A stretch of DNA of 20,246 bases, taken from positions 1 to 20,246 of IMG/VR virus record IMGVR_UViG_3300001589_000121; one strand, written 5' to 3'. Each line of letters starts with the position of its first letter. The first letter of the stretch is position 1. A model generated the notes under the pieces. It was not told the origin of the DNA. It searched no databases and saw nothing but the letters and a program-made list of their open reading frames with translations. The stretch is from a virus. Of the stretch, positions 2,084 through 18,572 are shown piece by piece. The translations under genes were made by a program, and so were the position numbers.

Positions 2084-2098
2084 GATAAATGTGTGACC
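2084..2098. repeat. Inverted copy of the AAATGTGT junction motif
   Basis: The plus strand reads ATAAATGTGTGACCT in the short spacer between two minus-strand genes. This is the same element found after stop codons at 12.3-16.5 kb and 18.55 kb, but here it points against transcription. Its presence in this orientation argues that the motif may work as DNA or as a protein site, not only as a coding micro-ORF. Confidence 0.4.
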
Positions 2099-2104
2099 TT
2101 AAGT

Positions 2105-9555: not shown

Positions 9556-10212
9556 TTAAGAAGAATAAAACTCTTCATCTTTAATTATTCTTTTTACTCT
9601 ATTGTATCCTAACACTAAATCTATAGATATAGACCTAACAGACTTACCTGTTTTTCTCATAGATAAAACTCTACTAACTTTCTCAAGTTCTTTAGGTACT
9701 TTGATTAAGCTTTTACCAAACTTCTTGTATCCATAAGGGGGAGTCCTAGAGTAAACTTCTTTGTTCTTTTTTTTATTCTGTAAAATGTGTGAGGTTCGCT
9801 CTGAGATAATTCCTCTCTCCATCTCATTTAGAGATAGCATAAGAGACAAAAAGAATTTACCCATAGCTGAGTTAGAATCTATAGTCTCTCCGTTTATATC
9901 TAATACAGAGATACCTATACCCTCTTTATTTAGCGTTTCTATGAAGTTTAAGCCATCTACTACTCTTCTTGATAGTCTATCTAGCTTCCAACAAACGATG
10001 TGATCTACCTCTTTGTTCTTAATCTTATCTTTAAGAACCTTACCTCCTGGTCTATTGAATATTTTACTACCTCCAGAGATATCAGAATCTATAATTACAT
10101 CTATAAGATCATAACCTTTGTCCTTGCAGAAGGAGGAGCATTTATCTAATTGCATTTTTTCAGAGTTATCTTGTCTGTCTGTAGATACCCTTATGTATAT
10201 AATCGTTTTCAT
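9556..10212 (-). CDS. Serine recombinase (resolvase/invertase type)
   Basis: The protein has 218 aa. The catalytic domain begins MKTIIYIRVSTDRQ, with the nucleophile Ser10 and Arg8. The conserved LDRLSRR block is at residues 77-83 and the helix E region around SLNEMERGIISERT is near 130. A short C-terminal domain (about residues 170-215) holds a helix-turn-helix, as in resolvases and invertases, and lacks the long zinc-ribbon/coiled-coil tail of large serine integrases. It could resolve multimers, invert a segment or act in integration. Two 47-bp direct repeats lie 155-253 bp upstream and are candidate sites. An inverted repeat (10285-10307) close to the start may be an operator. Confidence 0.9.
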   Translation of the reverse strand: MKTIIYIRVSTDRQDNSEKMQLDKCSSFCKDKGYDLIDVIIDSDISGGSKIFNRPGGKVLKDKIKNKEVDHIVCWKLDRLSRRVVDGLNFIETLNKEGIGISVLDINGETIDSNSAMGKFFLSLMLSLNEMERGIISERTSHILQNKKKNKEVYSRTPPYGYKKFGKSLIKVPKELEKVSRVLSMRKTGKSVRSISIDLVLGYNRVKRIIKDEEFYSS

Positions 10213-10366: not shown

Positions 10367-10465
10367 CGTATGGAGTATGAAGTATATTCTTATTCCTAAA
10401 TCTTTCGTATGCTCTTATCGTATGGAGTATGAAGTATATTCTTATTCCTAAATCTTTCGTATGCT
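10367..10465. repeat. Two identical 47-bp direct repeats, period 52
   Basis: Copies at 10367-10413 and 10419-10465 both start CGTATGGAGTATGAAG and end AATCTTTCGTATGCT, separated by CTTAT. The unit itself is bounded by CGTATG at both ends. The two copies appear identical over 47 bp, which suggests recent duplication or functional constraint. They lie beside a serine recombinase and may be its sites, or they may be replication iterons. Confidence 0.8.
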
Positions 10466-10514
10466 ATTGAAGTATTGTATTAAGAATTTCTAAGGAGAAG
10501 TTTTTAACTTAAAC

Positions 10515-12187: not shown

Positions 12188-12331
12188 TTATTGTTCTATT
12201 GTTATTTCTAATAATACTTCTTCTTTGTCTACCGTTACGACCCAGGTGTCGTATAGTTTTTTCCCTTTGTTTAAAGAACTTAATAAGTCTTCTATGTCGT
12301 ATCTAGTAAATTCTATTTTAATTTTTTTCAT
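12188..12331 (-). CDS. Hypothetical small protein (47 aa)
   Basis: The ATG at 12331 is preceded by the full consensus leader CTTAAAAACAAACAATC, which strongly supports translation. The product starts MKKIKIEFTRYDIEDLLSSL and ends in beta-like VTVDKEEVLLEITIEQ. Not recognised. A micro-ORF (12328-12357) ends on its start codon, so it may be translated by coupling from the 203-aa gene upstream. Confidence 0.65.
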   Translation of the reverse strand: MKKIKIEFTRYDIEDLLSSLNKGKKLYDTWVVTVDKEEVLLEITIEQ

Positions 12332-12357
12332 GATTGTTTGTTTTTAAGGTTACACAT
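12328..12357 (-). other. Met-Cys micro-ORF linking two genes (9 codons)
   Basis: After the stop of the 203-aa gene the minus strand reads TAATAAATGTGTAACC. The ATG at 12357 opens MCNLKNKQS and its TGA at 12328 overlaps the ATG of the next gene. Similar sites are at 13025-13042 (MCNPE), 14934-14951 (MCELE), 15410-15427 (MCKIK), 16415-16540 (chain) and 18552-18572 (MCNYKI). At 14115-14120 the ATG is followed at once by TGA. A nucleotide-level motif without translation is the alternative. Confidence 0.4.
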
Positions 12358-12360
12358 TTA

Positions 12361-12972
12361 TTAATATTGTTCTCCATCTTCTGTAAACTCGTACTCATTA
12401 ACTATAATACTTTCTTCTATAGCTTCTCTAGAAGTATTGTACTCGTGTTCTTGTTTTAGTGAATGGTATATCTTGTTACATATATCTTCGTAATGTTCTC
12501 TTATTTCTTCTAAGATGTCTTCTAAGATGTCTTCTATGTTTGAATAGTTCTTACCGTACCGGTCATTAGTCATTTCAGCATCTAAGTTGTCTGAATAACT
12601 TTTTGAATGGTAATAGTGTCCACTGTGTTTGAAGCTTCCGTATATGTTTATATCACCGTTTTTAATTAGCTTGATAACTCTGTACCAATCTTTTTGGTAC
12701 TGTTTGTTCCTGTAGTTTGGAGTTATGAAGTGTAGTATATCTTTGTTTGGTGATCCTTCAAACATAGCACCATCACCTTGTGAATGGAATCCTCTGAAAT
12801 ATATTTTATCAATATCGAATCCTGTTTCTGTATCTCTGTCCATATACATTTCATAAACACTATCCCACCAACCTTCATATATGTTAAGGTCGTAAAATTT
12901 CTCGATTGCTTTTTCTTGCGATTCATCATTAAGTTCCTCGAACTTGTAAATTTTAATTGTTTCTGTTCTCAT
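12361..12972 (-). CDS. Conserved phage protein of the 'IYF-GF-SQGDGA-FEG' type (203 aa)
   Basis: The protein opens TIKIYKFEELNDESQEKAIE and contains GFDIDKIYFRGFHSQGDGA followed by MFEG (residues about 51-73). This combination is familiar from a family spread over phages and plasmids of unrelated bacteria; its function is not established as far as I know. The C-terminal part is acidic and helical (SNIEDILEDILEEIREHYED). It is preceded by a 60-bp leader element that also precedes the gene at 14639-14881, so the two may be regulated together. Confidence 0.75.
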   Translation of the reverse strand: MRTETIKIYKFEELNDESQEKAIEKFYDLNIYEGWWDSVYEMYMDRDTETGFDIDKIYFRGFHSQGDGAMFEGSPNKDILHFITPNYRNKQYQKDWYRVIKLIKNGDINIYGSFKHSGHYYHSKSYSDNLDAEMTNDRYGKNYSNIEDILEDILEEIREHYEDICNKIYHSLKQEHEYNTSREAIEESIIVNEYEFTEDGEQY

Positions 12973-12988
12973 GATTAATTAAATTACA

Positions 12989-13048
12989 TCCTCTTTAAAA
13001 ACTGTGTAACCTAGAGTGAGGATATTACTCAGGGTTACACATTTATTA
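12989..13048 (-). promoter_or_regulatory. Leader hairpin element, copy 1 (terminator/attenuator-like)
   Basis: On the minus strand TGTGTAACC and GGTTACACA form a perfect 9-bp stem, with an inner GAGT/ACTC pairing, followed directly by GTTTTTAAA. This looks like an intrinsic terminator or attenuator in the leader of the 203-aa gene. The same element, with an identical 43-nt core, is repeated at 14898-14957 before another gene. It also contains the Met-Cys micro-ORF MCNPE. Confidence 0.65.
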
Positions 13049-13630
13049 TACTGTTTCTTCTATTTGATTAAACTCTATATAGTCATCCATAATCTGTTCA
13101 TATATATTCATTGTCTCATAACCTTCATTCTGTAGTATAAACTCTAATACAGCTCCGAAATTATGTTCTAGGTGAGATTCTGACTTCATATTGTTTATCC
13201 ATACCTCAGCATTATTACTATGTGAGGAGATAAATCCAGAACTTGATGTGTATCTATCTTTAATCCAATTATCAAATTCTGTCCAATTAGATTTTAGATA
13301 GTCTATGACAAGATAGTATTGCTTTTGAGAGATAACATATTCACAGTTTATGCTGTCATTAGTAAAGTTGTAGTATTTAGGACTGACTAAATTTTGAAAG
13401 TTGATACTCGTATTTATGTTTTCATCTGACAATAAGCTTTGTACTATGCTACAAATTTGTTTAGATATTCTTTCATTCCTTTCTGTATGATTCCATTCAA
13501 AGCCTTCATAGTCAAGGCTTGTTCCGTATTCATCGTTGAAAGATTGAATATCATATTCTTCCATTTTGTATTCGAATAGGCTATTATAGAACCCGTTGAA
13601 TAATGGTAAGTAACTTTCTATTTTTTTCAT
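13046..13630 (-). CDS. Conserved phage/plasmid protein of the 'SPKYYNF-ND' type (194 aa)
   Basis: The sequence begins MKKIESYLPLFNGFYNSLFE and contains NLVSPKYYNFTNDSI (residues about 81-95). That pattern, 'LP-F-GFY' followed by 'SP-xYNF-xx-D', is known from a family in phages and plasmids, without an established function as far as I know. The protein is acidic and soluble. Its ATG overlaps the stop of the upstream 155-aa gene (ATGA). Members of the two families seen here (this one and the 203-aa one) can occur near each other, and the adjacency suggests a shared task. Confidence 0.75.
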   Translation of the reverse strand: MKKIESYLPLFNGFYNSLFEYKMEEYDIQSFNDEYGTSLDYEGFEWNHTERNERISKQICSIVQSLLSDENINTSINFQNLVSPKYYNFTNDSINCEYVISQKQYYLVIDYLKSNWTEFDNWIKDRYTSSSGFISSHSNNAEVWINNMKSESHLEHNFGAVLEFILQNEGYETMNIYEQIMDDYIEFNQIEETV

Positions 13631-14094
13631 GATTTTTGTTTTTTAATTTGTTGAATTATATCTGTTTCCATTAATTTTAATACATCATCTACAGTTTTAA
13701 CTGTCGTGTCTCTAAAGAATATGTAATATTTTCCAGTGTATGTCGTGTATTTACTGTCTTTGAAATCTCTGTCATTATCAGGTCTTATATTTAAAGTCCA
13801 ATTGTTGTTGTTAATACTAATTTTAGCTTGGCTACCTTGACACTTGTTTGAAAATTCAGTATACAAGTAAGGAGTATTAAATCCTTTTATACAGGCAACG
13901 GCTAATTCTCTGTTTATTTCTTCTACAAAGTCACAAAGTATCTTATTATATATTTTTGTTGACTTTTTATTAATCGTTTCGGTTATTTTTAACTGATTTT
14001 GTTCATCATTAGCCTGATTAATAAAGCTATTAATTAATGAATTTCCTTTTGCGTGGATTGCCTCCACTTCTACTGTAAAGTTGTAAGTTTTCAT
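13627..14094 (-). CDS. Hypothetical protein (155 aa)
   Basis: Family not recognised. A beta-like start (TYNFTVEVEAIHAKG) is followed by a helical region, an Asn-rich beta segment (AKISINNNNWTLNIRPD) and a C-terminal helix ending IIQQIKKQKS. No metal or membrane features. The ATG follows the consensus leader ATTAAAAACAAACAATC. The junction upstream carries the AAATGTG motif in the same layout as at 12331-12360, with two or three differences over about 31 nt. Confidence 0.75.
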   Translation of the reverse strand: MKTYNFTVEVEAIHAKGNSLINSFINQANDEQNQLKITETINKKSTKIYNKILCDFVEEINRELAVACIKGFNTPYLYTEFSNKCQGSQAKISINNNNWTLNIRPDNDRDFKDSKYTTYTGKYYIFFRDTTVKTVDDVLKLMETDIIQQIKKQKS

Positions 14095-14123
14095 GATTGT
14101 TTGTTTTTAATGTTTCACATTTA

Positions 14124-14348
14124 TTATTGGTGTATCCATGTAGTATCAGAAGCGAATAAATATTCGTCAGTTCCAAAACAGTAGTATATGTCTATACCGT
14201 TCACTGTGTCTTCATATTGGATATTTGCAATTGTTTGTTCGTTGTAGTCTACCTCAGTCCAATCTAAGTGATTAGCGTAGTCTATAGCTTTTTCAATTCC
14301 TTGAAATCCTGGAATCGTAGCTTCAAAAAATTCTTCTGTAATTTTCAT
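14124..14348 (-). CDS. Hypothetical acidic protein (74 aa)
   Basis: Family not recognised. A helical start (ITEEFFEATIPGFQGIEKAI) is followed by a beta-rich half (IDIYYCFGTDEYLFAS) that could form a small sheet. It is very acidic, with few basic residues. The leader TTTAAAATAAAACAATC precedes the ATG, supporting the start. It is followed by the AAATGTG junction motif. Confidence 0.7.
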   Translation of the reverse strand: MKITEEFFEATIPGFQGIEKAIDYANHLDWTEVDYNEQTIANIQYEDTVNGIDIYYCFGTDEYLFASDTTWIHQ

Positions 14349-14360
14349 GATTGTTTTATT

Positions 14361-14642
14361 TTAAATTATACTGAATCCGTTTTGTTCAAAGCTTAAAGAC
14401 CCAAGAGCAGACCTAAGATCTTGATATATTCTTTCAATATCGTCTTGCTGATCGTGTGCCCATTCGTTAAAGTCAACATTGTTAACGTCTCTAAAGTCTT
14501 GCATATCAATTTTTTCTTTTACCTCTTTATCGTGGTCTTGATATATTTTAACCACTTGATTAATATAAGCGGTTAACTTCTTCATGTCTTTGCAATCTAT
14601 ACTTTTGTCATAGATTTCTTTTGCTTTTTCTATTGGTCTCAT
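14361..14642 (-). CDS. Hypothetical acidic helical protein (93 aa)
   Basis: Family not recognised. It is mostly helical and rich in Asp, Lys and Gln, with a segment (WAHDQQDDIERIYQDLRSAL) that could be amphipathic. The start is unusual in this window: AAAACGAAAGGAT before the ATG contains AAAGGA, a possible Shine-Dalgarno sequence. The ATG overlaps the stop of the upstream 80-aa gene (ATGA). Confidence 0.7.
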   Translation of the reverse strand: MRPIEKAKEIYDKSIDCKDMKKLTAYINQVVKIYQDHDKEVKEKIDMQDFRDVNNVDFNEWAHDQQDDIERIYQDLRSALGSLSFEQNGFSII

Positions 14643-14881
14643 ATCCTTTCGTTTTTAGCGTAGTTTGTAATATTTATAAGGTTATCATTCAGAATTTCAA
14701 TTGCTTCTTCGTATTTAGCTTTAAATACGCTCTCAGTGTGTTTCTTAATCTCCTCAGGAGTTAAGTTTTCTTCTCTGAGGTTACAATATATTTCTAATAA
14801 TAATTGTTCGAATGTGTATCCATCCATTAGGTTTTGAGACTTCTCGTAACCGCTTTCTAAATCAATGTTTGTCCAATCCAT
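14639..14881 (-). CDS. Hypothetical acidic protein (80 aa, internal start chosen)
   Basis: The frame continues upstream to an ATG at 14947, but that part consists of the 60-bp leader repeat, so the start is set at the ATG at 14881 (MDWTNIDLESGYEKSQ). The protein is acidic and largely helical (FEQLLLEIYCNLREENLTPE, then an EAIEILNDN segment). Not recognised. The leader GGATAAAAATTTAATTATT before the start resembles that before the 203-aa gene, which has the same repeat upstream. Confidence 0.7.
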   Translation of the reverse strand: MDWTNIDLESGYEKSQNLMDGYTFEQLLLEIYCNLREENLTPEEIKKHTESVFKAKYEEAIEILNDNLINITNYAKNERI

Positions 14882-14897
14882 AATAATTAAATTTTTA

Positions 14898-14957
14898 TCC
14901 TCTTTAAAAACTGTGTAACCTAGAGTGAGGATATTACTCAAGTTCACACATTTATTA
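14898..14957 (-). promoter_or_regulatory. Leader hairpin element, copy 2
   Basis: The core 14898-14940 is identical over 43 nt to 12989-13031, and the following segment differs at about four positions. The outer stem is weaker here (TGTGTGAAC against GGTTACACA), while the inner GAGT/ACTC pairing and the GTTTTTAAA tail are kept. It contains the micro-ORF MCELE. It lies 17 nt upstream of the chosen start at 14881. Confidence 0.6.
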
Positions 14958-15323
14958 TTAATAAGTTTTTTTAAGATAGTTTCTTAGCTCTCTCATTTCC
15001 CATGTAGCATCCTGACCAGCACAATAAGAGATTCTAGCACCACTTTTATTATACTTAGATAGAAAGAATCTACCCAATGCCCAATGCTGAGGAGATCTAA
15101 ACAGCAAACAACGTTCTACTGTTTGTTTTGTTTTGTGCATGCCACCTATTTGAGTAGTAAGCATGTCGCAAAGTTGTCTTCTAAAATCGTCTGTCAAATT
15201 TACTTTTGACCATCCTGTAGTTTTAAGGTACATTCTACCGTTTAATAATTCTTGTGCAGATGTCTGTGAACCTGCTACCTTCCAAGCCTTTTCTAGGCTG
15301 TCAATTTTTGTTATTCGTGCCAT
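14958..15323 (-). CDS. Hypothetical basic protein (121 aa)
   Basis: Family not recognised. Unlike its neighbours it is basic, with segments such as HKTKQTVERCLLFRSPQHWA and a basic C-terminal helix (MRELRNYLKKTY), so it may bind nucleic acid. It contains two Trp-containing segments (KAWKVAGS, TTGWSKVNL). Its upstream region holds nested inverted repeats (15331-15382), which suggest its own regulation. Confidence 0.7.
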   Translation of the reverse strand: MARITKIDSLEKAWKVAGSQTSAQELLNGRMYLKTTGWSKVNLTDDFRRQLCDMLTTQIGGMHKTKQTVERCLLFRSPQHWALGRFFLSKYNKSGARISYCAGQDATWEMRELRNYLKKTY

Positions 15324-15330
15324 AACTTTT

Positions 15331-15382
15331 AAATTAGTGATTGAATTTATATAGGTTTCAATCTTTTACCTTTTGCTAATTT
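15331..15382. promoter_or_regulatory. Nested inverted repeats upstream of the 121-aa gene
   Basis: The outer arms AAATTAG (15331-15337) and CTAATTT (15376-15382), and the inner arms GATTGAA (15339-15345) and TTCAATC (15357-15363), are all perfect. They start 8 bp upstream of the ATG at 15323, so they could form an mRNA leader hairpin or an operator. Confidence 0.4.
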
Positions 15383-15419
15383 AGTGAATATATTTCGTAC
15401 TGACAAATATTATTTAATT

Positions 15420-15947
15420 TTACACATTTATTCTCATTACCATATTAAGAGGGATACCGTATCCATCGGGATCAATAACAGGTTCAGATTCCTTGTATTC
15501 TTCTTCATCAAGCTCTGAGTCTTCGTCTATTATATATTCTATTTCTAACCAATCGCTTATTTTTGGGTTGTCACTTCCGTAATTGTCTTTTATTCTTGCT
15601 GATTTTCCGCAGTCACTTAGTTCTATTAAGTATCCACCAGTATTTGACATTGTAACATATCCATGCGCTTTAAAGCTTTTGTGTTTTTTGTATTCATCAA
15701 TAGCAAGATCTAAGCATTCATTAAAGTTTTCGCTGTTGTTTTGAAACTCTTTTATTCTTAAGTCTTCGCTGTTGTCTAGTCTAAAAATATATTTGTTCCA
15801 ATCTCCTTTTATTTCAGGATCTTCGTAAGTTTCTTCATAGGCTCTATCTTCCCATACGTCAAACCATATTTTTATATTGTTTTCTGTCTCTATTTGGACA
15901 CTTGAAACTATCCCTGCAGTCTCTAATTCTGTTTTAATTACTTTCAT
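15420..15947 (-). CDS. Hypothetical very acidic protein (175 aa)
   Basis: Family not recognised. Asp and Glu dominate, especially at residues about 140-160 (IDEDSELDEEEYKESEP), with few basic residues. Several beta-like segments (SVQIETENNIKIWFDVW; GGYLIELSDCGKSARI) suggest a compact sheet. The charge recalls DNA-mimic anti-restriction or anti-nuclease proteins, but there is no motif for this. The stop TAA lies inside the AAATGTGTAA junction motif, so its last two residues (Asn-Val) come from it. Confidence 0.75.
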   Translation of the reverse strand: MKVIKTELETAGIVSSVQIETENNIKIWFDVWEDRAYEETYEDPEIKGDWNKYIFRLDNSEDLRIKEFQNNSENFNECLDLAIDEYKKHKSFKAHGYVTMSNTGGYLIELSDCGKSARIKDNYGSDNPKISDWLEIEYIIDEDSELDEEEYKESEPVIDPDGYGIPLNMVMRINV

Positions 15948-15949
15948 GA

Positions 15950-16153
15950 TTATTTAGTTTTAGCATTATTAAATTGTAAAAAGTTTGTTTTTATTATTAG
16001 GTCTTCTCTTTTTTCTTCTATCCATTTTGAATACCATGTTTGAAGAAATTTAGGAGCTGTTTCTAGCATCCCTTTTTGATCTACATAAAAAGTGTTATTA
16101 ATTAGATAGATCGTTTTGTTATGTACGTCTTTATAGATTTCGAATTTTTTCAT
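15950..16153 (-). CDS. Hypothetical protein (67 aa)
   Basis: Family not recognised. A beta-like start (KKFEIYKDVHNKTIYLINNT) is followed by a Trp-rich amphipathic segment (PKFLQTWYSKWIEEKRED) and a polar tail. It is soluble and mildly basic. The leader CACAAACTAAACCCAAAATC before the ATG is nearly repeated before the next gene upstream, 265 nt away. Confidence 0.7.
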   Translation of the reverse strand: MKKFEIYKDVHNKTIYLINNTFYVDQKGMLETAPKFLQTWYSKWIEEKREDLIIKTNFLQFNNAKTK

Positions 16154-16166
16154 TTTGATTTTGGGT

Positions 16167-16418
16167 TTAGTTTGTGAATATTTTTACTAATTTTTTATAC
16201 TCTTTTTTTGCCTCTGTTAATGTTTCGTAACTGTTCCATATTTTGCAATCGTTTCTAGTCATTAGCCTTTTTAGATCGTTTCTGTATGCCTGAATATGAT
16301 AGATCCCATGCTCATAATACATTGTTAGTTTAGTTTTTTTCGTTTGAATGGTTTCTATGTATCCACACATAAAACCGTATTTACTTGTAAATCCGTTTTT
16401 AGTTTTTATTGTTTTCAT
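16167..16418 (-). CDS. Hypothetical basic protein (83 aa)
   Basis: Family not recognised. It is Lys-rich, with beta-like segments (FTSKYGFMCGYIETIQTKKT; YYEHGIYHIQAYRNDL) and a C-terminal helix (LTEAKKEYKKLVKIF), and could bind nucleic acid. It is the end point of a series of micro-ORFs: the 12-codon ORF upstream stops by an ATGA overlap on this ATG. The leader GCACAAACTAAACCCCAAAC resembles that of the 67-aa gene downstream. Confidence 0.7.
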   Translation of the reverse strand: MKTIKTKNGFTSKYGFMCGYIETIQTKKTKLTMYYEHGIYHIQAYRNDLKRLMTRNDCKIWNSYETLTEAKKEYKKLVKIFTN

Positions 16419-16540
16419 TTTGTTTGGGGTTTAGTTTGTGCAACGTCGCACATTTATAAATAGACCCCCCTATAGAATCGAACTATATAAACTGCATAAA
16501 ACCAGCAGAGGGGGTGAAACATTTATTCAAGATCACACAT
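16415..16540 (-). other. Chain of three abutting micro-ORFs
   Basis: From right to left: MCDLE with its TAA at 16523-16525, immediately followed by an ATG at 16522 opening a 22-codon ORF (MFHPLCWFYAVYIVRFYRGV, then YL) with its TAA at 16454-16456. An ATG at 16453 then opens MCDVAQTKPQTK with a TGA that overlaps the ATG of the 83-aa gene (16418). No bases separate the ORFs, which looks like a re-initiation relay. The 22-codon ORF includes a CCCCCT/AGGGGG pairing at 16464-16471 and 16509-16515. None is proven to be translated. Confidence 0.4.
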
Positions 16541-16596
16541 TTAGTATTATGTGCCTTGTTACACTATATAAGAATATAGTATACATTAAATAACTA

Positions 16597-16640
16597 ATTT
16601 AATAGGATAGTACATTTAGAATAATACTACCCTATTAAAT
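16597..16640. repeat. 16-bp inverted repeat (hairpin)
   Basis: ATTTAATAGGATAGTA (16597-16612) and TACTACCCTATTAAAT (16625-16640) pair at 15 of 16 positions around a 12-nt loop. This is longer than a typical operator half site. It could be a hairpin, an operator or part of an origin. No T-tract that would make it a clear terminator follows. Confidence 0.6.
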
Positions 16641-16896
16641 AACTGTTTTATTAATAAGCTATAATAAGAAGTAAACAAAACGGAAAAAATTGGTTATTAA
16701 TTACGATGTTTAACTTCCTTTCTACTTATTAATTAAGTCTTAAAAGTTTCATTTTTTCGCCTTGTTCCAATTTATTTAAAACTTCATAACCTTTTCAAGA
16801 TGCTTAAAAGCATAGGGTGTTTAGTTTAAAATTTCATGGAGCAAAATTTGCACACTTTTAAAATTTTATCAAGATGTCAAAAAACTGGAAATTGTG

Positions 16897-16946
16897 AACG
16901 GGCAAAGGAATTGAACCTTTTAAAACTTTGCGCCCACGCGCCCGTT
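16897..16946 (-). ncRNA. tRNA-like minihelix (acceptor stem + T-arm, no anticodon arm)
   Basis: On the minus strand AACGGGC (16946-16940) and GCCCGTT (16903-16897) form a perfect 7-bp acceptor-like stem. Directly inside the 3' strand is a 17-nt T-arm: AAAGG, loop TTCAATT and CCTTT, which fits the tRNA T-loop consensus TTCRANY. Between the 5' acceptor strand and the T-arm are only 19 nt, against about 43 in a tRNA, so no D- and anticodon arms fit. ACA follows one base later instead of CCA. It may be a tRNA remnant (for example an attachment site), a tRNA mimic or chance. Confidence 0.5.
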
Positions 16947-16958
16947 GAAAAAAATTAT

Positions 16959-17411
16959 TTACTTTGTGAAGTCTTCAAAGATGTCTTTAACGTCGTAACC
17001 GTTTAAAATATCCTTAATTTCATGGAAAAATCTACCTTTTGCTTTGTTTAGATCTTGTTTACTGCCTTGTTTGTAGTTGTAAGCTTTAACCGTTCCGCTT
17101 TCTTCAGTTGTTAAAACTATTTTTAGTTTATTGTTCCACGTTAAAATTATGTCTAATGGTTTTGAAACTTGTATTTTATTAAATGGTCTTAAGCCGTTTT
17201 GCTTTCTTGTCTTTTCGCGCTCTATCAATTGATAAGTACCGTTAACAATTGCAAGGATCGATTTTTTTTGGTCCAGTCTTTTTTCATTTGTTTCAAAGTT
17301 CCACGTTTTTAAGTCGATTTTTTCGATACTTGTACATTTATCCGTTGTTAACTCTTTCTTTGTTGTTACTACGTTTTGGCTCTGTCGAATTACTACTCTT
17401 AAATTATTCAT
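16959..17411 (-). CDS. Hypothetical basic protein (150 aa); first gene of the leftward block
   Basis: Family not recognised. It is Lys/Thr-rich, with beta-like segments (ILAIVNGTYQLIEREKT; LKIVLTTEESGTVKAYNY) and a C-terminal helical part (FFHEIKDILNGYDVKDIF). A basic protein made first from the divergent region would fit a host-takeover or regulatory role, but this is inference. The ATG follows TTTAAACTTTATAAAC. The tRNA-like element lies 12 nt downstream of the stop. Confidence 0.7.
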   Translation of the reverse strand: MNNLRVVIRQSQNVVTTKKELTTDKCTSIEKIDLKTWNFETNEKRLDQKKSILAIVNGTYQLIEREKTRKQNGLRPFNKIQVSKPLDIILTWNNKLKIVLTTEESGTVKAYNYKQGSKQDLNKAKGRFFHEIKDILNGYDVKDIFEDFTK

Positions 17412-17507
17412 GTTTATAAAGTTTAAATTTTGCCCGAACTTTTAAACGGTGTTCGAACTAGACCGAGATACAAATCTATATTAAATAAACGTACGGACAA
17501 AAATAAA

Positions 17508-17538
17508 AGTTACATTAATTTTAAAATTAAATGTAACT
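17508..17538. repeat. 31-bp near-perfect palindrome
   Basis: The segment AGTTACATT-AATTTTAAAATT-AAATGTAACT equals its own reverse complement except for one extra base. It lies about 97 bp upstream of the first leftward gene, where an operator or a hairpin that limits transcription would be expected. Confidence 0.65.
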
Positions 17539-17606
17539 GCTTGAATATCAGTTAATTAAATTTCATAGTTTTACTGGCAATCTCATAAAATTGATATTAA
17601 TAAAAG

Positions 17607-17695
17607 GAAAAAAAGTATATCTATTAATTTGATCCCGTTGAAATTTTAGTGAAAAAAAGTATATCTATTAATTTGATCTCGTTAAAATTTTAGTG
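17607..17695. repeat. Two 44-bp tandem repeats
   Basis: Units start at 17607 and 17651. Both run GAAAAAAAGTATATCTATTA, then ATTTGATC(C/T)CGTT(G/A)AAATTTTAGT, and they differ at two positions. The AT-rich direct repeats could be iterons (protein-binding repeats) of an origin or operators. Confidence 0.75.
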
Positions 17696-17722
17696 TGTTT
17701 TTTGTTTGGTGGATGGATAGGG

Positions 17723-17862
17723 TTAAGCAACGTATTAAAACGGATACAAAACAAAAATAAATCTTTTAGCCGTTGCTTAATCTTAATACTTCCCTAATGA
17801 ATAGAGCAAAAGTAATTTGCCCCAACGTTCGACATGGTGAGTATAACTAACTAAGTATTAAG
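17723..17862. repeat. Interlaced inverted repeats
   Basis: TTAAGCAACG (17723-17732) pairs perfectly with CGTTGCTTAA (17771-17780). CTTAATACTT (17782-17791) pairs perfectly with AAGTATTAAG (17853-17862). GTATTAA at 17732-17738 can also pair with TTAATAC at 17783-17789, so alternative folds exist. Confidence 0.6.
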
Positions 17863-18006
17863 TAGTTAAGGACAAGCGACACAGCGCAAAATTAGATAGT
17901 TAAGCGGATCGCAGAGATCAAAACGACCCCACCCCCCAAAAGATTTCGGGATCTCCCAGGCGACTACACCCCGACGCGCACACCCAATAACCCCACTCCT
18001 TCACCC

Positions 18007-18075
18007 CCACAGAACACTCCTAAGAAGCCTTGTGCCTCCACTGAGGGGATACATCCCTTTCGGTTGTTTCTGTGG
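18007..18075. other. GC-rich stem-loop with inner hairpin
   Basis: CCACAGAA (18007-18014) and TTCTGTGG (18068-18075) close a loop of 53 nt that contains GGGAT-AC-ATCCC (18046-18057). The stretch 17920-18060 is much richer in C than any other part of the window. It could be a structured leader RNA or origin element; no known RNA family is recognised. Confidence 0.4.
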
Positions 18076-18159
18076 CTGTATGGGCTTGTATGTGAATCTT
18101 TTTACTTATCCGTAACGTATTATGGTTTGCATAAAGCGATTGTATTGATTAAAGATGTG

Positions 18160-18191
18160 TTTGTTTATTTGGTGTAGTATTTATATCTTGG
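18160..18191 (+). promoter_or_regulatory. Candidate Bacteroidota-type promoter for the rightward genes
   Basis: TTTG at 18160-18163, then 20 nt, then TATCTTGG at 18184-18191. The Bacteroidota consensus is TTTG, 19-21 nt, TAnnTTTG, so the spacing fits and the second box has one mismatch. Transcription would begin about 60-70 nt before the ATG at 18264. Confidence 0.4.
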
Positions 18192-18210
18192 ATACTGAAT
18201 TACGTCTTGG

Positions 18211-18269
18211 CTATGTAAATTGGCAACTCTAACTCGGGGTTTAGACGATAGAAACTATGTAAAATGGCA
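18211..18269. promoter_or_regulatory. Direct repeat overlapping the HTH gene start
   Basis: CTATGTAAATTGGCA (18211-18225) and CTATGTAAAATGGCA (18255-18269) match at 14 of 15 positions, 44 bp apart. The second copy includes the ATG of the HTH gene. CCCCGAGTTA (minus strand, 18230-18239) lies between them. Two sites at a regulator's own start suggest autoregulation. Confidence 0.45.
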
Positions 18270-18548
18270 TATTTAACTTATGAGCAGAGGAGATTAAAGT
18301 ATGATCCTTTGTATATTGATTGGCTGGACAGGTTTGTGAGTTTACGGAAGTTGCGGAATATCAGCAGGAAGTACATGGCTAAGGAGTTGGGCTTGAGTAA
18401 CAGGACTTATTATACTAAGGAGGCTTGTATTTCTAGTTTTAAGATGTATGAGTTGGTTAAGGCTTTTGAGATTATAGGTTTTAGTTTTGAGGTTGTTGTT
18501 GACCAGGTGTTTAGTCATACTAAGAGGGGTAAGAGGATAGATTATTAA
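18264..18548 (+). CDS. HTH (XRE/Cro-like) transcriptional regulator candidate (94 aa)
   Basis: The central part (residues about 26-75) reads as a helix-turn-helix domain: LRKLRNISRKYMAKELGLSN has the layout of a Cro/CI-type helix 1, turn and recognition helix, followed by RTYYTKE and two more helices (FKMYELVKAFEIIGF). A basic N terminus and a KRGKR tail also favour DNA contact. It is the first rightward gene after the divergent region, with a sequence repeat over its own start, so it is a good candidate for a control switch or late-gene activator. It uses G/T-ending codons (TTG, AAG), unlike the leftward genes. Confidence 0.6.
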   Translation: MAYLTYEQRRLKYDPLYIDWLDRFVSLRKLRNISRKYMAKELGLSNRTYYTKEACISSFKMYELVKAFEIIGFSFEVVVDQVFSHTKRGKRIDY

Positions 18549-18551
18549 TAA

Positions 18552-18572
18552 ATGTGCAACTATAAGATATGA
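18552..18572 (+). other. Met-Cys micro-ORF on the rightward strand
   Basis: The HTH gene ends TAATAAATGTGCAAC. The ATG at 18552 opens MCNYKI and its TGA at 18570-18572 overlaps the ATG of the next gene (18569). This is the same arrangement as in the leftward block but on the other strand, so the element follows transcription direction in both blocks. Confidence 0.4.

Follow-up and report, generated by a model that had tools for sequence, protein, structure and literature searches.

The early array and its junction core

A short motif recurs at gene junctions in a viral DNA stretch of 20,246 nucleotides (the window), part of a 27.8-kb IMG/VR virus record (IMGVR_UViG_3300001589_000121, positions 1 to 20,246). 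Copies of this core mark the junctions of small genes in a leftward early array, which starts after a conserved first gene of family F06 and extends to gene family F04, and they almost always point in the direction of transcription (G000 and G002 to G007). The window holds 14 matches to TAAATGTGYNAC with at most one mismatch, versus 0.87 expected (0/100 shuffles), and 19 matches to TAATAAATGTGT with at most two mismatches, versus 7.4 expected (0/100 shuffles); TAAATGTGYNAC is the better, more informative core. An earlier inspection of the letters of the window (the sequence-only reading) had listed the motif on both strands, and all of its sites were recovered: the core begins at 12360, 13045, 14123, 14954, 15430, 16456, and 16543 on the minus strand and at 18549 on the plus strand, and the inverted copy given at 2084-2098 is present as an inverted core at 2086. 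The location noted there, mostly right after a stop codon, also holds: relative to the core, the stop of the upstream gene mostly ends at -2, +1, or +4 nt, and most cores sit in tandem in-frame TAA repeats at the end of that gene. Neither the plus-strand copy (18549) nor the inverted one (2086) showed conservation in the relatives checked; both may be of chance or recent origin.

A nucleotide search of the phage collection with the array region returned no relative. Pattern and protein scans yielded seven IMG/VR records (G001 to G007), among which G001 appears nearly identical to G003, and G004 to G006. In 20 kb of G003, TAAATGTGYNAC has 8 exact matches versus 0.02 expected, and across the relatives, the cores are co-directional and linked to stops, and their frame is not conserved. 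Since a G007 gene product matches the muzzle family of crAss phages and the primase/helicase of the window resembles its counterpart in Cellulophaga phage phi38:1 (about 30% identity), the group is, judging from its proteins, crAss-like. The hosts are probably marine Flavobacteriia; a scan of genome contigs identified no host, its matches being single ones scattered over unrelated organisms. In the pieces examined of a sister clade (TerL 65 to 66% identical), no comparable array was found, the early array probably lying beyond the contig ends. Core-like matches also occur in structural and late genes, mostly in antisense; most were rejected as elements because they encode Gly-Asp-Thr-Phe on the opposite strand.

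A constant core followed by exchangeable leaders

The consensus of 27 non-redundant copies, TWATWM-TAAATGTGYNACSTT, spans about 21 nt. Positions outside the search seed are conserved as well (A10 in 26/27, C11 in 21/27, and T14 in 27/27), and these copies share no conserved block further upstream, -33-like sequences included. In G007, the cores read TGTGC, whereas those of the other genomes mostly read TGTGT. Each core leads into a leader of one of several kinds, which ends at the next start codon. The commonest, form A, is a short A-rich run (CTTAAAAACAAACAATCATG) with A at -3, -6, -12, and -13, the positions at which A favors initiation in Flavobacterium (PMC6847099). The form B leader folds as a hairpin of 15 bp, and its AUCCUC loop can pair with a GAGGAU located 14 to 15 nt before the start; form C has the palindrome-like TGTGCRAYGTYGCACA; and form D carries CCUA-GAAA-UAGG in six G007 copies, two with the core and four without it. 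This last form is a 37-nt leader (CTAAATAAAATCCTAGAAATAGGTGTAAAATTATG) with a GAAA-loop hairpin, standing before six different G007 genes. In form E, upstream of the first array gene, the 5' arm of a hairpin precedes the core, and the 3' arm contains it (TGTGYCACC). The DNA of the form A leader likewise forms a repeated block, accompanied by the core in some places but not in others; therefore, since A and D leaders occur in both contexts, core and leader are separate modules.

The TGTGYNAC portion of the core has an exact or near-exact complement downstream in forms B and C and upstream in form E. Because this complement is kept, the core is predicted to fold into a stem in these three forms; forms A and D leave it unpaired. 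The form E hairpin reaches 17 bp in G003 (z score, -7.5) and covaries beyond shuffled alignments (0.259 versus 0.161; 0/500 shuffles), with three pairs changed on both sides; in the window, this hairpin is degenerate. Form B folds in four relatives with z scores of -3.9 to -6.3 and one compensatory pair, and its loop is fully complementary to the downstream GAGGAU in 7/7 cases. The evidence for the B hairpin and pseudoknot is suggestive only, since its covariation does not exceed that of shuffles and the pseudoknot pairs show no variation among copies.

A tRNA-like structure lies at the head of the array, preceded by the form E core and followed by the form C core 6 to 7 nt past its 3' end. 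Its 7-bp acceptor-like stem and 5-bp T arm (loop TKCRA) were found in 6/6 genomes versus 1/1,800 shuffles, and in sequences trimmed by hand to the structure, covariation amounts to 0.611 versus 0.203 (0/500 shuffles), with six doubly changed pairs. In the window, the stems are intact, and the 3' tail CTATTTA runs into the form C core. The middle is short and irregular, no CCA is encoded, ARAGORN and Rfam returned nothing relevant, and a full cloverleaf was not found. The presence of a covarying tRNA-like structure between the E and C cores indicates that this leader is RNA-active.

Junctions and genes appear to recombine as units

One gene can carry different junction forms in different phages. 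F03 is followed by an A-like core in G000 and G002, by form B in G005, and by form D in G007, while F12 is preceded by form B in G000 and G005 or form C in G007. After F08, form A leads into three different genes in G002, G003, and G004, and the order F05-A-F13-F07 of G000, G003, and G005 reads F05-A-F07 in G002. The junctions therefore behave as shuffled cassettes, and this pattern of forms and partners is that expected from the exchange of gene-plus-junction units. The junction at 12329..12360 has form A in G003 and G005 as well, and the window's B copies at 13045 and 14954, 1.9 kb apart, are 88% identical over 80 nt.

The Met-Cys open reading frame is a by-product of the motif

The sequence-only reading had proposed that the ATG of the motif opens Met-Cys micro-open reading frames (micro-ORFs), which might couple translation to the next gene. 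Its particulars are correct: ATGA overlaps occur at 12357, 16453, and 18552, and the copy at 14120 (core at 14123) reads ATG-TGA. The proposal itself does not hold up. Over 39 copies with a start downstream, the motif ATG stands in frame 0, 1, or 2 relative to the next start in 10, 6, and 23 cases, the micro-ORF spans 1 to 97 codons, and the distance to the next start, where one was found, is 10 to 104 nt. The frame closes directly after Met in one A copy and after 5 codons in B and D copies (those at 13045 and 14954 overlap nothing). Some copies stand before no gene at all, among them the one at 16543, which precedes the non-coding tRNA-like structure. An ATGA overlap with the next start, present in 11/39 copies, mostly of form A, and an MCNLKNKQS-like peptide in many A copies could speak for coupling, but the peptide likeness follows from the DNA identity of the A block. 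A translationally coupled upstream ORF was accordingly rejected, neither a conserved frame nor a conserved overlap being found, and we regard coupling through the micro-ORF as the least probable of the explanations considered here. The Met-Cys micro-ORF is a by-product of the motif. Some motif ATGs run in frame into the next gene, as in MCNVAQTKTPNK-MKNFEVYKD; where this occurs, automatic gene calling would add a false N terminus, and "MCN..." N termini annotated in these phages are probably artifacts of the motif ATG.

Features of the window and its surroundings

TABLE 1 Junction elements and associated features in the window and in related records
Feature	Position	Strand	Description
Form A junction	12329..12360	-	Core TAAATGTGTAACCTT (12360-12346), A-rich leader AAAAACAAACAATC, ATG 12331
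Form B junction	12988..13045	-	Core, hairpin 13041-13003, loop AUCCUC, downstream GAGGAU (possible pseudoknot); z score, -2.6
Form A junction, degenerate core TAAATGTGAAACATT	14092..14123	-	Micro-ORF is ATG-TGA
Form B junction, second copy	14897..14954	-	z score, -1.1 alone
Core TAAATGTGTAAAATT	15416..15430	-	Contains stop of 15420-15947 gene; motif ATG to next start, 104 nt
Form C, TAAATGTGCGACGTTGCACA	16437..16456	-	Near-palindrome TGTGCRAYGTYGCACA, then leader to ATG 16418
tRNA-like structure	16464..16515	-	7-bp acceptor-like stem ACCCCCT/GGGGGGT; T arm TATAG-TTCGATT-CTATA
Weaker core TAAATGTTTCAC	16525-16514	-	Near core in form E position
Core TAAATGTGTGATCTT	16529..16543	-	Form E position (hairpin degenerate in window), upstream of tRNA-like structure
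First gene of leftward early unit, family F06	16959..17411	-	150 aa, conserved
Bacteroidetes-type promoter match, TTTTTG-N19-TAGATTTG	17471..17503	-	Upstream of F06
Core TAAATGTGCAACTAT	18549..18563	+	After helix-turn-helix-like 94-aa gene (18264-18548), before next rightward gene
Inverted core TAAATGTGTGACCTT	2086..2100	+	Upstream of leftward primase/helicase gene; not conserved in G003
37-nt leader CTAAATAAAATCCTAGAAATAGGTGTAAAATTATG	L095 19881, 17673, 17014; L096 1014, 731, 454	-	G007
tRNA-like structure in relatives	L082 6250-6420; L086 15740-15970; L096 2600-2790; L077 14780-15010; L091 4990-5220
Region before rightward late genes of relatives	L082 ~9800-9900; L077 ~18115-18260; L086 ~12250-12400; L088 ~13560-13710

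No function was found for the 150-aa F06 protein, and in G002 and G004, another gene holds its first place. Matches to the -7 element are also present upstream of F06 in G005 and G007. Together with the Bacteroidetes-type promoter match that precedes F06 in the window, they would allow the array to be a single transcription unit. Two tandem 44-bp repeats (17607-17694, 95% identical) lie in the divergent control region that separates the two early units, leftward and rightward, and a 52-bp unit (CGTATGGAGTATGAAGTATATTCTTATTCC...) occurs in two tandem copies in a non-coding region (10367-10470, 94% identical). The phage, otherwise lytic looking, encodes a small serine recombinase (9556-10212, minus strand; Pfam Resolvase, 3e-36), and similar recombinases are carried by G003 and G007.

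DISCUSSION

The sequence-only reading had also suggested a junction element that follows transcription and may act as RNA, and this suggestion gains support from the co-directional cores in seven relatives, from hairpins that pair with the core, and from the exchange of cassettes. Our favored interpretation, an RNA recognition or processing site rather than the runner-up, a set of phage-specific early promoters, is that the core may be part of a non-coding intercistronic RNA control or processing cassette in the variable early array of a small clade of uncultured crAss-like phages; we put it forward tentatively. The element looks like a control tag for early messages, not a tiny gene. Within a polycistronic early mRNA, a trans-acting factor would recognize the core in an orientation-dependent way; most likely, the core would serve RNA processing or RNA control, lying in the gap behind the stop codon that is free of ribosomes. 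Stems would set the accessibility of the core, while the A-rich or hairpin leader would set the translation of the next gene. That complements to the core lie on different sides of it and at different distances is explained most simply by a core that is part of the RNA and whose accessibility has an effect. Their retention is awkward both for a promoter starting transcription downstream of the core and for a dimer operator of fixed spacing, the latter being disfavored since partner spacing differs among the forms.

If the core were instead a phage early promoter, TAAATGTG would be a variant of the -7 element, transcription would start a few nucleotides downstream in YNACCTT, and each gene would have its own promoter and leader. 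We consider this possible, yet somewhat doubtful. The Bacteroidetes promoter consensus is TTTG/TANNTTTG, with the -7 element TAHHTTTG, and AUG is depleted near starts in these bacteria (PMC6847099). With TAAATGTG, the core agrees with that element at 7/8 positions, and it stands before units of all kinds, even the tRNA-like structure, which is non-coding; moreover, TAAWTGTG or a similar sequence lies about 240 nt before the first leftward gene in G002, G003, G004, G005, and G007, two G007 genes have their ATG exactly 5 nt after TAAATGTG, and the message would lack the AUG of the core if transcription began downstream of it. There is also a precedent in halovirus HF2, whose intergenic repeats proved to be promoters (PMC8707807). 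The fit to the host element is nevertheless incomplete. All 27 non-redundant cores, which were selected for AAATGTG, have TAAATGTG rather than TAHHTTTG; where the host element leaves two positions open, the cores always have AA, and 24/25 TAHHTGTG sites just upstream of starts are TAAATGTG. A host-type promoter architecture at the cores was rejected, as the AT content just upstream is 0.688 versus 0.732 at other gene ends and a TTG 17 to 26 nt upstream occurs in 2/40 cases versus 11.5% in the control, leaving neither a -33 element nor raised AT. Furthermore, the B and C leaders and the upstream arm of form E keep complements of a core that would be absent from a transcript starting downstream of it. 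Searches found no phage-encoded T7-type polymerase or sigma factor, the T7-type search lacking a working control.

Two other readings are less probable still. A phage DNA-binding regulator might bind the core, much as the stoperators of cluster A mycobacteriophages are bound, which we think improbable. The site is short and asymmetric, has one main orientation, and lies in short intergenic gaps overlapping stops; some inverted copies lie upstream of starts; and in G007, the change of TGTGT to TGTGC throughout the genome suggests coevolution with a recognizer. The helix-turn-helix-like 94-aa protein at the head of the rightward unit would be a candidate, but its match is weak, below the Pfam cutoff. 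Against a regulator, the cores are confined to the early array, no lysogeny module was found in the records read, the spacing between inverted partners varies, and RNA pairing better accounts for the covariation in those parts of the E arms that lie beyond the core. The repeats might, alternatively, be passive linkers that persist only through gene-shuffling recombination, since one gene family can be flanked by different forms and partners across genomes, and the window holds the two 80-nt copies that are 88% identical. This would leave unexplained the conservation of the core in non-homologous contexts, its orientation with transcription, the compensatory changes, and the separable leader modules, and is very improbable as the sole explanation.

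Several observations weigh against an intercistronic RNA element. The resemblance of TAAATGTG to the host -7 element and the TAAWTGTG-like copies far upstream of the first leftward gene are among them, as is the B-form covariation that stays within shuffles. The window's two B copies fold less well than those of the relatives, form A has no local structure (a pairing of its cores with upstream sequence was rejected, with a mean z score of +0.16), forms A to E were assigned by eye, and no trans-acting factor was identified. A signal acting purely as RNA would not be expected to have inverted cores near some starts, yet these occur at 2086 in the window, before late genes in G002, G003, G005, and G006, and as an inverted pair in G007. 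Before the rightward late genes of G003, G005, and G006, a terminator-like hairpin and T-run are followed by an inverted core (GGTGACACATTTA), a conserved block (GGTAAAAAATAATTGTTATATATTTACA), and ATG.

In our literature search, which covered open-license papers, we found neither this element described nor a map of promoters or processing sites for this clade. The closest systems share its layout. The start-associated sequences (SAS) of cluster K mycobacteriophages are short and asymmetric, lie at junctions of non-structural genes mostly in one orientation, and have no known function; about half bear an added inverted repeat (extended SAS, ESAS) just upstream, with little support for RNA pairing (PMC3203893). 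Our core is similarly a short, asymmetric, mostly one-way junction repeat found before different gene families of the non-structural region. However, SAS is a 13-bp GGGATAGGAGCCC-type repeat with a Shine-Dalgarno core 3 to 7 bp from the start codon (PMC3203893), whereas the present core, TAAATGTGYNACSTT, lies at the upstream stop without a ribosome-binding sequence, and unlike those of ESAS, its inverted partners pair with the core itself. HF2 combines class I and II intergenic repeats, which are conserved in the virus genus and which reporter and primer extension experiments identified as archaeal promoters bearing TATA boxes, with a tRNA-like gene read as attP (PMC8707807). The combination is reminiscent of ours, but the host domain differs, and the portion of the description used here mentions no core-pairing hairpin forms. 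Stoperators are likewise asymmetric, lie in short spaces between genes along the direction of transcription, and bind the immunity repressor (PMC9283540); the present cores have the same placement, but they concentrate in the early array instead of spreading genome-wide, and as a possible repressor, only the weak helix-turn-helix match was seen. From the Bacteroidetes -33/-7 promoter (PMC6847099), one base off in TAAATGTG, the core is set apart by its invariant AA, its conserved downstream sequence, and the missing -33 element and AT-rich upstream region. For each of SAS/ESAS, the HF2 repeats, and stoperators, a defining test fails or is lacking in the present case. A further analogy is offered by the mobile promoter/stem-loop cassettes of T4-type phages.

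A bolder form of the RNA interpretation, to which we give a rather low probability, is that a common code of single-stranded RNA marks the gaps of the early message for a phage-specific factor to read, with the tRNA-like processing structure leading the array and each junction setting its own accessibility (open, hairpin, or pseudoknot). If true, this would be a plug-and-play system of mRNA segmentation that doubles as a joint for gene shuffling. Since many units carry their own junction, recombination at the repeats could lead to the gain, loss, and shuffling of genes, and small early genes would be swappable as self-contained cassettes. The control of early expression in crAss-like phages is hardly known, and it becomes testable through an element that can be searched for by its defined core, that has interchangeable leaders, and that lies near a tRNA-like RNA.

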